A stretch of 52,200 nt of DNA from Candidatus Yonathbacteria bacterium RIFCSPLOWO2_01_FULL_47_33b (GTDB lineage Bacteria > Patescibacteriota > Minisyncoccia > Phycocordibacterales > UBA1550): positions 1-52,200 of the forward strand of contig MHUW01000019.1 in assembly GCA_001823575.1 (NCBI GenBank), read 5' to 3'. Position 1 is the first letter of the stretch. Each line of letters opens with the position of its first letter. Below the pieces are notes generated by a model. The model was not told where the DNA came from and did not search any database. It saw only the letters and a program-made list of their open reading frames with translations. This document shows positions 14,101-21,695 of this stretch, piece by piece. The translations under genes were made by a program, and so were the position numbers.

Positions 14101-14814
14101 TTGCAACCAACCCAACGGAGGTACAAAATGAAACAACTTGTCGCAATACTCTTTGTATTTATGGCACTTGTTGCCATTGTTGCACCTGCCCGTGCCGCAC
14201 TCGTCTATGACGGCTACGCTACGGGCCCTGGAGGTTTGTCTACTCCCTACCCTGCGGGCGACAATCCGCAAGTGTATGCGGGATTGATTGAGTTCTCTAG
14301 TGGAATCCTCGCCATGTCGAGCGATCGCAATGCGCCATCGCATACTGGTGAATCGTGGACAATGACCAACTACTCCTACGCCGAAGTACAAGCAGGAGCA
14401 CCAGTACGGTTTACGTCGGAACAGTATGCACGAGCAGGATGGGTTCTTGATAGCTACCTTGGTCCTCAAAATCTTTCTCAATTGTATCCCTCCTTAAGGG
14501 TGCTGGCGGAAGCGAACGGCAATGATACGCTTGCTTCGTTAAACACGCAAGTGTGGGATATTATGTCCTCAACTTCGTGTCCTAGCAACTGGTCTTGCTC
14601 TAGCATCGTCGACACCTTCAACTGGTCTACCCTGATGGCGGTCGCCTCTGGTGGTCCGGGTCGTGACGAGTATCTCGTTCCTCTCGCCAGCCAAGGTCTC
14701 ACCCTCGCATCTGGCACGGTAAGTATCGCTCCGTCGGTCCCCCTCCCGCCATCAGTTTGGCTCTTGGGAAGTGGTCTCCTCGGCCTCGTCGGTGTCGCGC
14801 GTCGCAAGAAGTAA
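14101..14814 (+). CDS. Secreted protein with VPxP/PEP-CTERM-like sorting signal
   Basis: Signal peptide MKQLVAILFVFMALVAIVAPARA; C-terminus VPLPPSVWLLGSGLLGLVGVARRKK (VPLP motif, TM helix, RRKK). Confidence 0.8.
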   Translation: MQPTQRRYKMKQLVAILFVFMALVAIVAPARAALVYDGYATGPGGLSTPYPAGDNPQVYAGLIEFSSGILAMSSDRNAPSHTGESWTMTNYSYAEVQAGAPVRFTSEQYARAGWVLDSYLGPQNLSQLYPSLRVLAEANGNDTLASLNTQVWDIMSSTSCPSNWSCSSIVDTFNWSTLMAVASGGPGRDEYLVPLASQGLTLASGTVSIAPSVPLPPSVWLLGSGLLGLVGVARRKK

Positions 14815-14839
14815 GCAGTAAGTTTTCAAGTAGCACCAA

Positions 14840-14887: not shown

Positions 14888-15700
14888 CTATATCTTTCTC
14901 TTTTTCGAAGAAAAACCGAATATAGTTTTATATGTATTCTTCCCAAAAAGAATCGGGTGAAAGGATTTTTTAGCAAAAATTTTTTCCTTGGTCTTTTGGT
15001 TGTATCCGACCACACTCCCCTTTTCAAGAAGGGCAAAATTTTTGATACTCGACATTACCTTAAACCCCTCTGGCTTTATCACCAGAGCATCGACTTCATA
15101 AAAATCAATGGTATTTTTATTTTGTTTTTGAGAAGAAGGTTTTATCATTTTATAATATTCAAGCAGGCGTGTTACTCCTCGAATGGTATCATGGTACGTT
15201 TTTGTGCTTTTATCTTTCCCATACTCAAAACCAACTCCTAACTTTGCAGAGGACATCAGTGCATTCGACTTTGTTGCCTTCATATAAATAACCCTCTTGG
15301 GTGAAATTGCCTTCAATAAGGGTTTCATTGCGGGGGTATAATTTGTGATTATGAGCGAAGAAGCAACCCCTGACTCGGTAGAATGAATATCTACAACAAC
15401 ATCAAATGCATCAATAAAAGGCTTCATCCTGTACGCAAGTTCTTCCTCCCGGCTTCCATTTTTCCTACCGGGAAAAACTCTGTTGAGATCATCATCAAGG
15501 AAGCGCTTTTTTGCTTTAACTGCTTGTTCATTTGCGACATTAATGACAAAAGTTCCACACAGCGGTTGTGTCTTGCTAAAATACTTAGCGACCTTAAGCC
15601 CGACTCGCTCATTACCGTGTGTACAAACATTCAATAAAATCTTTGGCGACGGTGAGCAGTCTATTTTTTGAATATTCTTTTTTGAATATTTATGATTCAT
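14888..15700 (-). CDS. Succinylglutamate desuccinylase/aspartoacylase-like (M14-type) hydrolase
   Basis: 270 aa; CTHGNERVGLKVA zinc-binding motif, DLNRVFPG, VVDIHST. Confidence 0.75.
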   Translation of the reverse strand: MNHKYSKKNIQKIDCSPSPKILLNVCTHGNERVGLKVAKYFSKTQPLCGTFVINVANEQAVKAKKRFLDDDLNRVFPGRKNGSREEELAYRMKPFIDAFDVVVDIHSTESGVASSLIITNYTPAMKPLLKAISPKRVIYMKATKSNALMSSAKLGVGFEYGKDKSTKTYHDTIRGVTRLLEYYKMIKPSSQKQNKNTIDFYEVDALVIKPEGFKVMSSIKNFALLEKGSVVGYNQKTKEKIFAKKSFHPILFGKNTYKTIFGFSSKKRKI

Positions 15701-16497: not shown

Positions 16498-16765
16498 CAA
16501 AAAACTCCTCGTCTCCATACACAAAAAGCTTGTGTAAAGGGACGAAGAGTCTTGTCTACGTGTTACCACCCTTTTTTGGAAGCAAAGCTTCCCTTATTGA
16601 CTCAGACACCTTGCGGCCGACATCAATTATCCCATGATTACGGAGGAATCCGGGTCTCCACTAATGCAGAGACCACCTTGCTCATTTTGGCGAGCGATAT
16701 AGGCCCAACCCCCTAGTTTTCCTAGGGGACCTATATCAAAGGATTTACTACTATCGAAGAACTAA
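16498..16765 (-). promoter_or_regulatory. T-box-like leader with intrinsic terminator
   Basis: Minus strand: AAAAAAGGGTGGTAACACG (16559-16577), then ACTCTTCGTC...GACGAGGAGT-TTTTTG terminator (stem 16504-16513/16541-16550) just upstream of 16438. Confidence 0.7.
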
Positions 16766-17860: not shown

Positions 17861-18017
17861 GATTGCACTCCTTTCTAAATTTGATAAGAACCTCTATCGC
17901 AAAACTAACATGTATTCCATATAATGTCAAACCTCAAATCTAACAGTACAAAATAATATATCTTGAGTCTAAGACTAGATTAAAAAAGACAAAAAGTAAA
18001 GTGTAGTGGCACAAAAT

Positions 18018-18052
18018 AAAAAGCCCGCGATTTCTAGTGCGGGCTTTAGGTA
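18018..18052 (-). terminator. Terminator of the peptide-containing operon
   Basis: Minus strand TAAAGCCCGCACTAGAAATCGCGGGCTTTTTATTTT immediately after the 31-aa ORF. Confidence 0.75.
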
Positions 18053-18062
18053 GCATGGCCAC

Positions 18063-18158
18063 CTATTTCTTCAACGGCTTGGGCTTGAATGGTGAAAGAT
18101 CATTGGGATCACCCCATCCGCCCTGCGAAGTGCTTGTCTTGCGAACTTCTTTTTTCAT
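18063..18158 (-). CDS. Candidate RiPP precursor peptide (31 aa)
   Basis: MKKEVRKTSTSQGGWGDPNDLSPFKPKPLKK*; RBS AAGGAG 6 nt before ATG; last ORF before the operon terminator. Below ORF-track length cutoff. Confidence 0.6.
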   Translation of the reverse strand: MKKEVRKTSTSQGGWGDPNDLSPFKPKPLKK

Positions 18159-18234
18159 TTCAATCTCCTTATTAAGATTACGGGCTAGAGGCGTCCACTT
18201 ACATTCGTCAACGCAAACACCCACAATAATACTA

Positions 18235-18747
18235 CTATGTTTTACACATTAACGCAAGCTCACTTCTAAGTGCCCCGTAGACTGCAATATCGTGTAGAGC
18301 CTCTCTAATAATGCCAGCTTGCCGCATTACTCCTTCGAGGTGGAAACCAAGCCTCTCTAGGATTATGCGTTCTGCAGTATTATCATAAGACACATATGCC
18401 GTAAGTCTATGTGTCTTATGGTTTTCAAGAGTCCACGCAATCAACACCTGATGAGCGAAGGAGCCTAGTCCGATACGTCGCATGCTTGGCATTACGGTCA
18501 CACCAATTTCAAAGTGATTGAATGCTCGCGACAGATAGGAATAAGCATAGCCAACGTACAACCCATTATATACAATGATGAATACATATTTGAACATTTC
18601 ATCTTGTAATCGAAGGCTTTCAGCGATTCTTTCATAACTGATAGTCTTAGTGGGCTGGAAATTTCCTTGGACAGCCTCTGAGCAATAACATCCATAAAGA
18701 AAATCAATATGTTTTTTAGACACAACAGCTGGTTCTAGTTCTATCAT
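18235..18747 (-). CDS. GNAT family N-acetyltransferase
   Basis: MIELEPAVVSKK...; FEIGVTVMPSMRRIGLGSFAHQVLIAWTLENHKTHRLTAYVSYDNTAERIILERLGFHLEG. ATGA overlap with upstream rSAM stop. Confidence 0.85.
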   Translation of the reverse strand: MIELEPAVVSKKHIDFLYGCYCSEAVQGNFQPTKTISYERIAESLRLQDEMFKYVFIIVYNGLYVGYAYSYLSRAFNHFEIGVTVMPSMRRIGLGSFAHQVLIAWTLENHKTHRLTAYVSYDNTAERIILERLGFHLEGVMRQAGIIREALHDIAVYGALRSELALMCKT

Positions 18748-20111
18748 TTTACCCTCCATAACTGAATCGGCTTACCAATCCGTTCAAAGAACTGTAACTT
18801 TGCAAGAGCAAGATTTTTCGAATGATTATCACAGCCCTGAAAACGAACCGCGTCTGTATATTGCCCGGGGCATCCACCTTGACAGACTTGAAACAAGTTA
18901 CATTCTTTGCAGCTTGTATTATCAGAGATAGTACGTGATAACCGCACGCGAGCAATTGTGTTCCATATCTCCACGAATTGATCCGTGTGCAAGTGGCCAA
19001 GATGGGACATATTCTCACCAAATTGTTTCTGAAACAAAGTACAATAAGAAACGCCTTCAGGGCCAAAGGTAATTAGCCCTAAATCATGAGAACATGCTGG
19101 GTCTTGCAATGTCTTATGTTCTCGATCTAGTAACATAGGCCAGTCAAACACTTGTGTTAGGGAAAATTTTTTAATGGAGTGATTTCCTTTTTCCAGAAAC
19201 AGCAACAGCTTGTATGCTAAATCAGCAATATCTTGCACTCTTTTGGTCCCATCATCTATACACTTTCCTGTTACAGAAGGAACTTCTATAACCCAGTCTT
19301 TCACCCCTAAGTCTGAGGCCAATTTACACACCTCCTTAAGACTTTCTTTGTTCATCCAATCATCAGTAAGCATGCTTATAACCCGCACATGAATCCCTGC
19401 ATCTAAATACCTCGCGATGTTCAAGACAATTTCCTTGTGACTTTGAACCCCACGCAAAGTATTATGGGAAACCATTGTTCCGTCTAAACTAACCTGAACC
19501 CCTCGGACGAACGGATTATTTTGAAGTGCTTTTACTACAAAATCTTGACGTCTCCAACCATTAGTATTCAAGACTATGGGAATACAGTATTTTCGGGTAA
19601 GGACATCAACGGTCATTTCAAACTGAGACTGATTAATGCTTGCTTCCCCTCCAGAAAGCCTAACACTTTCAACGCCAAGTAATGACAGATTGCGTGCAGT
19701 AGTTAGTATCTCCTCGTTAGAGAACATTTGTTTCTTGGGCTCTCCATCATCAAAGAGGTAGTAGCAATGGCTGCATTTCATGTTGCACTTTCTTGTTAAA
19801 TGCCATATGGCATGTCTACATGGTGCAACCAAGTCATATGTTTCAACCAATTGATTCTGCCTACCACCATTTGGTTTTTCATTTAATTCAATGACTTCGA
19901 AACAAGCAGGGATTTCTTTGATCAAACTATCGAGCCCTGGAATTTCACAAATGGGCGTCAGTCCATCACACAATGATAGTGCTCGGAACAATTCTGGTGT
20001 TAACAGATAGGTTTCGCCATACAGAGTAACCGCAACACGGTCAGCATCACTTGGGTACTCACAATTGTGACGTCCTCGTAATATTGCTCCATCAAGTAAC
20101 TTAGGATACAT
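18744..20111 (-). CDS. Radical SAM/SPASM peptide maturase-like protein with N-terminal PqqD-like region
   Basis: Start at MYPKLLDG (RBS GGAGG); CNMKCSHC radical SAM motif; C-terminal SPASM-type CKECNLFQVCQGGCPGQ. Confidence 0.85.
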   Translation of the reverse strand: MYPKLLDGAILRGRHNCEYPSDADRVAVTLYGETYLLTPELFRALSLCDGLTPICEIPGLDSLIKEIPACFEVIELNEKPNGGRQNQLVETYDLVAPCRHAIWHLTRKCNMKCSHCYYLFDDGEPKKQMFSNEEILTTARNLSLLGVESVRLSGGEASINQSQFEMTVDVLTRKYCIPIVLNTNGWRRQDFVVKALQNNPFVRGVQVSLDGTMVSHNTLRGVQSHKEIVLNIARYLDAGIHVRVISMLTDDWMNKESLKEVCKLASDLGVKDWVIEVPSVTGKCIDDGTKRVQDIADLAYKLLLFLEKGNHSIKKFSLTQVFDWPMLLDREHKTLQDPACSHDLGLITFGPEGVSYCTLFQKQFGENMSHLGHLHTDQFVEIWNTIARVRLSRTISDNTSCKECNLFQVCQGGCPGQYTDAVRFQGCDNHSKNLALAKLQFFERIGKPIQLWRVK

Positions 20112-20130
20112 AATAACCTCCTTTTCTGAG

Positions 20131-20370
20131 TTAAGATTGAACAACAAGTGCATCTTCTGTAACCACTTTATTACAGTGATCACAGAATACACCAGAAACA
20201 CGAATGGTTCCTGTTGTAAATTTGAAGCAATGATTACAACGCAACAGTGGGGACGTACATTTCATACACCATCGATGGTCTTGGGACTTATCTTTGAGTA
20301 CAATGCCGGACGTCGTCCACCCGCATTTCACACAAAAGTATTTGCGTGACTGATCATGACTAATTAACAT
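20131..20370 (-). CDS. Small zinc-ribbon-like protein with four CxxC motifs
   Basis: 79 aa; CVKC, CMKC, CNHC, CDHC; RBS CTAAGGAG. Confidence 0.6.
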   Translation of the reverse strand: MLISHDQSRKYFCVKCGWTTSGIVLKDKSQDHRWCMKCTSPLLRCNHCFKFTTGTIRVSGVFCDHCNKVVTEDALVVQS

Positions 20371-20432: not shown

Positions 20433-20458
20433 CTCAAAAAATAATAGCATTTTTTGAG
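20433..20458. repeat. Perfect inverted repeat upstream of the RiPP-like operon
   Basis: ctcaaaaaat aatagc attttttgag (10-bp arms). Confidence 0.6.
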
Positions 20459-20726
20459 CAAAAAGTCAAACTTTTCTGGCGGTACACTCAACCTTGAAGT
20501 GCAACACCTTCAACTGGTCTGCGCACATACTCGTCGCTCATTCAGCAGAATGACCTACTGGGTGGGCGGTCTTGATGAGTATCTGATACCCATCAACGTC
20601 GCCCAGTCCGGCATTTCAGACACAGGCTTGGCAACCTTTACCCCTTCGGTTCCCGCCCCGCCAGCAGTATGGCTCTTTGGCTCCGGCCTCATTGCCCTCG
20701 TCGGCATCTCGCGTCGCAAGAAGTAA
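20454..20726 (+). pseudogene. Degenerate VPxP/PEP-CTERM gene fragment (paralogue of 14101-14814)
   Basis: C-terminus VPAPPAVWLFGSGLIALVGISRRKK. The NTFNWS segment matching DTFNWS of the intact gene is in a different frame (20500, ends at TGA). Confidence 0.7.
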
Positions 20727-20741
20727 GTTTCAAATAGCACC

Positions 20742-20821: not shown

Positions 20822-21016
20822 ATGAAAATATCTGATGAAAAAATGCAGAAACAGGTACGCATTGCCTCCAAAAAACTCGGTGTGACAGAAAACGAGATTG
20901 TTAAACGTGCTATTTCAAGCTACCTTGGAAACTTTGAAGACCTTGTAAATCTACAAAAGGAGCTTCACACTTGGGATATTTTATCAGCCAAGTCTATGCG
21001 TAAGTATAATTTCTAG
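20822..21016 (+). CDS. Putative antitoxin (ribbon-helix-helix-like)
   Basis: 64 aa, directly upstream of MazF-like toxin. Confidence 0.6.
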   Translation: MKISDEKMQKQVRIASKKLGVTENEIVKRAISSYLGNFEDLVNLQKELHTWDILSAKSMRKYNF

Positions 21017-21021
21017 CCGAC

Positions 21022-21345
21022 ATGAAGCCTGGTGATATTTGGATTGTTCATATACCAGAGCTTGGCACCCATGAGCAAAGTGGCGTTCGTCCGGCTGTCA
21101 TCGTGGCGTCGGTAACAAAAACGATAGTAACCATCATCCCCTGCACGAGCAACAAAGCGGCCCTGAGGTTTCCTTTTACCTTGTCTATCACACCAACTGA
21201 AAAAAATGGTTTAACTTCAACCTCTATAGCCCTCATTTTCCACATTCGTGCGATTGATACTAGTTTGCTCAAGAAAAAAGCAGGCGAGCTCAGTAAAAAA
21301 GATTTTGCGTCAATCAAGAAAGAAGCACGAAAACTTATTGGGTAA
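21022..21345 (+). CDS. MazF/PemK-family toxin
   Basis: MKPGDIWIVHIPELGTHEQSGVRPAVIVAS... typical PemK N-terminus. Confidence 0.85.
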   Translation: MKPGDIWIVHIPELGTHEQSGVRPAVIVASVTKTIVTIIPCTSNKAALRFPFTLSITPTEKNGLTSTSIALIFHIRAIDTSLLKKKAGELSKKDFASIKKEARKLIG

Positions 21346-21349
21346 ATAC

Positions 21350-21695
21350 CTACTCCCCTTTCTCGTATATTTGATGAGCGACGAGGTCTTGATAGTGCGG
21401 CGAGTTGGTCATCAGCTCGTCGTGGGACCCTTCGGCAACAATTTTGCCCTTTTCCATAACAATTATTTTATCTGCATTACGAACCGTAGAAAGGCGATGC
21501 GCGACAATGATGGTTGTCTTGCCTTTTGAAACTTCGTTAATCGCATCCATAACATATTTTTCATTCACGGTGTCGAGGCTTGCGGTAGCTTCATCAAAAA
21601 GAAGTATCTGTGGGTCTTTGACGATAGCGCGAGCAATACCAATACGCTGACACTCGAGAGCTTGATCCCCCGCTCCCCCACCAGCGTATCCTGTT
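21350..21695 (-). pseudogene. C-terminal ABC-transporter ATPase remnant with internal frameshift
   Basis: [15 protein letters not shown] in one frame, [26 protein letters not shown]...[25 protein letters not shown] in another; no N-terminal part. Confidence 0.8.

Follow-up and report, generated by a model that had tools for sequence, protein, structure and literature searches.

The closest described counterparts of the radical SAM/SPASM enzyme considered here (rSAM) are SkfB, SuiB and CteB, all of which contain an RRE. With these maturases rSAM shares its length, the CX3CX2C motif, the seven-cysteine SPASM set, a putative PqqD-like N-terminal region, an adjacent short candidate precursor and the fold, whereas identity in structural alignments amounts to about 15–21%, the peptide belongs to no known precursor family, the host is a member of the Patescibacteria and a GNAT is part of the unit. 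The triceptide enzymes XncB, OscB, MscB and YxdB are likewise SPASM rSAMs. One of them, OscB, makes Trp–Asp i/i+2 cross-links (PMC11002830), and the peptide described here has a matching pair of an aromatic residue and an Asp two positions further on (W-G-D). Unlike in triceptide precursors, this motif is single and forms no repeat, and homologous precursors were absent from the databases searched. From the streptide/WgkB type the locus differs in score (58 bits against 650 on the WgkB model) and in that the peptide reads W-G-D and not Trp-Gly-Lys. Further parallels concern the neighboring genes. An auxiliary TrpRS confers resistance to indolmycin (PMC6804068), and an additional AlaRS shields an ascamycin producer (PMC12945691); as in indolmycin producers, the genome studied here has a second, divergent tryptophanyl-tRNA synthetase (TrpRS2) beside a putative biosynthetic unit, whereas its zinc-ribbon partner and T-box-controlled neighbor set it apart and its resistance role is putative. 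GNATs of the RimL/MccE type render processed microcin C inactive (PMC4363471), and the combination of a peptide gene and a GNAT, with an aminoacyl-tRNA synthetase as possible target, recalls microcin C7 with its MccE/RimL-type GNAT immunity; in contrast to that system, no MccB adenylating enzyme was seen in the window, which has an rSAM instead, and the GNAT is only weakly similar.

The window, i.e., the whole stretch of 52,200 nucleotides analyzed, belongs to a genome of 719 kb in 22 contigs from a tiny, probably host-dependent bacterium, whose assignment to the Patescibacteria is suggested by its gene content and genome size together with those of its relatives. We tentatively interpret the locus, at a probability of about 0.45, as a RiPP cassette consisting of rSAM, GNAT and a 31-aa precursor that was swapped into a Trp/TrpRS island of a Patescibacterium, where the peptide would be matured and TrpRS2 would afford protection. 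Four minus-strand genes lie in series, each with a Shine–Dalgarno (SD) sequence, exactly where the original prediction had placed them: a zinc-ribbon protein with four CxxC pairs (ZnR; 20131–20370, 79 aa, SD AAGGAG), the rSAM/SPASM maturase (18744–20111, 455 aa, SD AAAGGAGG), the GNAT acetyltransferase (18235–18747, 170 aa, SD GGAGGG) and the candidate precursor peptide MKKEVRKTSTSQGGWGDPNDLSPFKPKPLKK (18063–18158, 31 aa, SD AAGGAG). The predicted ATGA overlap between the rSAM stop and the GNAT gene was likewise found (18744–18747), and folding confirmed an intrinsic terminator directly 3′ of the peptide ORF (18012–18046, minus strand) whose GC-rich stem of 9 bp closes a 10-nt loop and is followed by a run of U; a pattern scan had missed this terminator because its loop limit was 8 nt. 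Neither TrpRS2, the next gene on the strand, nor the T-box leader had been mentioned in that prediction. An exporter or dedicated protease is absent from the rSAM–GNAT–peptide operon, a point against the RiPP reading.

The radical SAM cluster motif CX3CX2C of the maturase is intact (C109/C113/C116), and Radical_SAM PF04055 matches with 54.5 bits (E = 2e-14, cut-off 29.5). The GGEP motif is replaced by GGEA. The seven SPASM cysteines are complete, comprising C340, C357, a CX2CX5CX3C stretch at 401–414 (C401/C404/C410/C414) and C427. The expected domain architecture was recovered in part: The radical SAM domain exceeds its cut-off, SPASM PF13186 reaches 16.6 bits with all seven cysteines present, which is below its cut-off of 21.5, and the PqqD-like N-terminus (about residues 1–95) is not recognized by Pfam. 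This N-terminal region aligns with that of the best full-length relative discussed below, and a low-confidence model (pLDDT about 30–60) shows strands followed by helices. The AlphaFold2 model, built on 47 remote sequences, is good for the core and poor for residues 1–95; its nine best structural matches in the PDB are SkfB, SuiB (one with the precursor bound) and CteB, all of them RiPP maturases, in agreement with the predicted RiPP-type rSAM/SPASM maturase adjoining a plausible short precursor. Among 82 NCBIfam families matching at E<1, the best 25, which include NirJ, AhbD, mycofactocin, ScmE, nif11 and WgkB, all fall far below cut-off, a difference from the triceptide enzymes as well; judged by these profiles, rSAM therefore probably represents an undescribed subfamily. 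A weak pVip match arises only through the shared rSAM core, and an identity as antiviral viperin was rejected. The highest NCBIfam scores, all far below cut-off, belong to the heme-pathway families NirJ and AhbD, and this remote similarity, together with that to anSME, would fit an enzyme of the sulfatase-maturase or heme type that matures a protein or a cofactor, with ZnR serving as scaffold. We consider such a role quite improbable, as no sulfatase or heme gene was seen near rSAM and ZnR associates with TrpRS elsewhere.

The search for relatives yielded remote similarity throughout. Exact octapeptides of rSAM had no match in GTDB or in IMG/VR viral contigs, relatives in 297 genomes of the order and 380 of the phylum show only 22–33% identity, plasmid relatives only 21–26% (e.g., GDL-motif, NirJ and mycofactocin maturases), and phages contained none. 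The degenerate motif CN[ML][KR]C[SVK]HC retrieved at least 80 remote relatives from GTDB, and the eight neighborhoods inspected among these held no operon of like composition. Since no relative above about 32–33% identity was found in GTDB, IMG/VR, the order and phylum genomes, the plasmids and the phages searched, the rSAM locus is an orphan there; moreover, the connection between rSAM and the peptide rests on one locus, because a homologous rSAM–peptide pair was found in none of the genomes, plasmids and viral contigs searched. The best full-length relative within the Patescibacteria (L014 of genome G506; 23% identity, PqqD-like N-terminus included) is encoded in a row of four genes (L206:4739-7468) for a 59-aa zinc-ribbon ORF, a 37-aa ORF, the PqqD-like rSAM/SPASM enzyme and a methyltransferase. 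The 37-aa ORF has an SD, lies just upstream of the rSAM gene and encodes a basic, lysine-rich, Cys-containing peptide that shares no sequence with the 31-aa peptide of the window, so that the likeness is one of layout only. By its composition, the unit in G506 is a candidate for another peptide-modification unit in Patescibacteria.

Only three ATG ORFs of 25–45 aa in the window have an SD, and among them the 31-aa ORF alone has positive codon log-odds; its codon usage ranks 9th among the 157 ATG ORFs of that length in the window, which speaks against a chance ORF. The encoded peptide has a basic N-terminal half (MKKEVRKTSTSQ) and a single Trp in the core W15-G16-D17 within GGWGDPND, which matches the triceptide precursor motif (aromatic-X-X with a polar Asp, Asn, Arg or Ser as third residue). 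The strong SD, the coding-like codon usage and the agreement of the Trp-Gly-Asp core with the i/i+2 Trp–Asp motif of triceptides make the ORF look genuine. A tblastn search of the peptide against plasmids gave no match, and the pattern GWGDPN(D/E) matched unrelated long proteins in viral contigs as well as a single phage-like ORF of 68 aa, hits that were discarded. With one Trp codon, a terminator directly behind it and trpS as the next gene, the ORF could in principle encode a leader peptide that attenuates trpS via ribosome stalling at the Trp codon. We rejected this very improbable explanation on the basis of the fold: The terminator stays intact when the RNA covered by a ribosome stalled at W15 is left out. 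Furthermore, the Trp codon is single, and the peptide ORF lies 200 nt from trpS at the end of another operon.

For the RiPP cassette we propose the following course of events. The PqqD/RRE-like N-terminus of rSAM would bind the basic N-terminal half of the peptide, whereupon radical chemistry would modify the single Trp of the core. The simplest product would be a C–C cross-link between W15 and D17, i.e., a three-residue cyclophane with a mass shift of −2 Da; we propose this linkage because SPASM enzymes are known to connect a Trp with the Asp two residues on. The GNAT, whose protein sequence scores above cut-off for PF13302/PF00583, carries an acyl-CoA motif and shows weak similarity to PPT/ArsN1, RimL and PseH models, may acetylate the peptide, before or after processing, either to mature it or to protect the producer, and might act as MccE/RimL does on processed microcin C. 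Finally, TrpRS2 together with ZnR would maintain the charging of Trp-tRNA when the housekeeping TrpRS comes under attack from the product or from a compound made by a competitor.

TrpRS2 (P0005; 16868–17860, minus strand) matches TIGR00233 with 238 bits (cut-off 177) and is 33–37% identical to the TrpRS enzymes of the genus; it has the KMSKS signature and reads TIAN where the HIGH-type signature is expected. A further TrpRS is encoded by a fragment at a contig end (C22:28-315), so that the genome has a second TrpRS besides a housekeeping copy, as is characteristic of an auxiliary TrpRS. In the TrpRS tree, TrpRS2 sits on a long, poorly supported branch, and orthology with the ZnR-linked TrpRS of the genomes G662, G082 and G023 is not supported. 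The extra TrpRS would probably serve self-protection, in which the GNAT perhaps also takes part. Two observations limit this assignment: TrpRS2 lies behind the peptide terminator, possibly with its own promoter, and co-expression with the peptide unit is therefore not given; and since ZnR–TrpRS occurs without rSAM or peptide in G662 and G082, TrpRS2 may be unrelated to the peptide.

The original prediction regarded the four-CxxC protein as a partner in the RiPP unit, an assignment that had to be revised: ZnR adjoins TrpRS in G662 and G082, is fused to it in G023 and, in G457, has tRNA-Trp and a TrpRS-like gene as neighbors. Judging from these contexts, ZnR is a TrpRS companion or TrpRS-associated domain, which is why it fits no RiPP class. 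Profile matches occurred in 4 of 397 order genomes and 2 of 380 phylum genomes, the window's own genome being included in both, and thus in four other Patescibacteria (E = 6e-7 in G023 and 5e-7 in G457). A TrpRS gene is near ZnR at all five loci, of which one has an rSAM. The eight ZnR cysteines are invariant in the four aligned sequences (window, G662, G082 and the TrpRS fusion of G023), and those of G457 were seen by eye. In G662, which belongs to the same genus, ZnR (51% identical) is followed by TrpRS and a chorismate mutase–methyltransferase fusion; in G082 it overlaps TrpRS, and the locus also contains such a fusion gene and tRNA-Trp. These fusions adjoin ZnR–TrpRS in two genomes (L094:7982-9142 and L104:3790-4977). 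ZnR of G023 forms the N-terminus of a single protein with TrpRS (L105:5854-7257), with a second TrpRS divergently next to it, and the locus also contains tRNA-Trp, a T-box, a phosphatase-like and a TrpD-like gene; the same contig carries two more TrpRS genes at distances of up to about 12 kb from the fusion. The genomes contain three TrpRS genes in G023 and two each in G662, G082 and the window's genome. In G457, tRNA-Trp directly precedes ZnR, a tyrosine-decarboxylase-like PLP enzyme lies behind it, and AstE and the TrpRS-like gene are located upstream. The ZnR–TrpRS(–tRNA-Trp) module may be new.

These contexts raise the question of whether Trp-tRNA itself is a substrate: TrpRS2 and ZnR could charge or present Trp for a Trp-derived compound made via Trp-tRNA, local tailoring enzymes (rSAM and GNAT in the window, chorismate mutase–methyltransferase in G662 and G082, the PLP decarboxylase-like enzyme in G457) could modify it, and the 31-aa peptide could be scaffold or acceptor. 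Such a pathway would account for the tailoring enzymes that differ from locus to locus, the ZnR–TrpRS fusion in G023, and the tRNA-Trp genes at three of the five ZnR loci (G082, G023 and G457); G023 and G457 have another tRNA-Trp elsewhere in the genome, and of the two copies in G023 only that of the locus has its CCA end encoded. We nevertheless judge it distinctly unlikely: The ORF-by-ORF reading of the window revealed no recognizable peptide aminoacyl-tRNA ligase or aaRS-like transferase, the cassette GNAT has an acyl-CoA motif, and, with five loci in total, those of the window and G662 lack a tRNA gene. Also rather improbable is the broader notion of a Trp-tRNA-linked modification island, in which ZnR/TrpRS, at some loci with tRNA-Trp, forms a fixed core and interchangeable enzymes work on a Trp unit that this core supplies or protects; rSAM plus peptide, chorismate mutase–methyltransferase and decarboxylase would then be alternative tailoring sets, and the window would be the version using a ribosomal peptide.

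Downstream of TrpRS2, a divergent T-box leader with a TGG (Trp) specifier (16535–16748, minus strand) has the elements of T-box riboswitches (RF00230), namely a specifier loop, the T-box GGGTGG and, according to the fold, a terminator stem that competes with the T-box in a mutually exclusive manner. It differs from the family in its short stem I, its score (43.2 bits, E 3e-7, below the gathering score of 93) and its position before a GNAT-fold gene in Patescibacteria. We read TGG as the specifier since the stem I internal loop carries TTGGG at the same point in the window's genome, G662, G023 and G031, the T-box of the last preceding trpB-trpA-trpS (genes named by eye). Of 61 related genomes, 19 have divergent T-box leaders (e.g., L094, L105, L106), all below the Rfam cut-off; these are of two types, one before an AspRS-like gene and the Trp type with TTGGG. 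As a T-box next to TrpRS in other genomes of the order usually leads into an AspRS-like gene, TrpRS being no more than a neighbor, only TTGGG-bearing T-boxes count as evidence. By its position, the leader in the window is predicted to control P0006 (15788–16438, minus strand, 216 aa), for which a model of low confidence gives a GNAT fold (Foldseek E of 1e-3 at best), and possibly also the AstE/AspA-like deacylase gene (14888–15700, minus strand), with a terminator-like stem between the two. In G027 (L097:3497-6792), an AstE/AspA-like deacylase, a P0006-like GNAT and an AspRS-like gene stand in a row; the AstE–GNAT pair thus also associates with an AspRS-like synthetase.

Homologues of P0006 (61% identical) and AstE (73%) occupy the same place in G662, which is syntenic with the window in having ZnR at one end and T-box–P0006–AstE at the other. 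Between these ends G662 has TrpRS and the chorismate mutase–methyltransferase fusion where the window has rSAM–GNAT–peptide and the divergent TrpRS; this gene order indicates two alternative fillings of one island. Compared with the window's other genes, ZnR, rSAM and GNAT have negative codon log-odds, an atypical usage in line with (recent) acquisition. The values of TrpRS2, P0006 and AstE are not negative, which for TrpRS2 and AstE says little because both were in the reference set. The shared part of the island, with its Trp-type T-box, a second TrpRS and the AstE-like deacylase, is present in G662 without an rSAM, and this, along with the heme-pathway families topping the NCBIfam scores, albeit far below cut-off, is compatible with a plain Trp-starvation and TrpRS-resistance island in which rSAM has a different substrate and the 31-aa ORF does not encode its precursor. 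This explanation is unlikely and is opposed by the GNAT–peptide order, the SD and the terminator, which put the ORF in the rSAM unit, by the structural matches of rSAM, which favor peptide maturases, and by the lack of any other rSAM partner in the locus.

Patescibacteria genomes are reduced, and there are hardly any known cases of such peptide modification in them. A survey of CPR genomes from mine sediments detected only a small number of regions related to RiPPs, most of them with YcaO proteins (PMC12153355). If the RiPP reading is true, the rSAM–GNAT–peptide unit beside a second TrpRS is a rare, testable case of Patescibacteria products, and the coupling to this synthetase suggests a possible target of the product. 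Moreover, with the Trp-type T-box the phylum, on which a partial literature search found no T-box paper, gains a class of regulatory RNA; our statements on novelty may hold as far as that search reaches.

Several features lie at the borders of the island. An 85-nt direct repeat (79%; window 14731–14815 and 20643–20727) brackets the whole Trp/peptide island and is possibly the scar of an insertion or recombination. Each copy covers the 3′ end of a PEP-CTERM-like ORF (VPxPPxVWLxGSGL..RRKK), and the hairpin terminators behind the two ORFs are nearly identical. The right-hand ORF (20454–20726) appears truncated. Just upstream of the operon (20822–21345) lie ORFs that we named by eye as an RHH-like antitoxin and a MazF/PemK-like toxin, and a MazF-like ORF, also named by eye, is found near the ZnR locus of G082 (L104:10424-10750). 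Positions 21350–21568 of the window encode a C-terminal fragment of an ABC transporter ATPase, which may be the remnant of a gene like the intact ABC transporter gene directly upstream of ZnR in G662 (L094:10657-12504).
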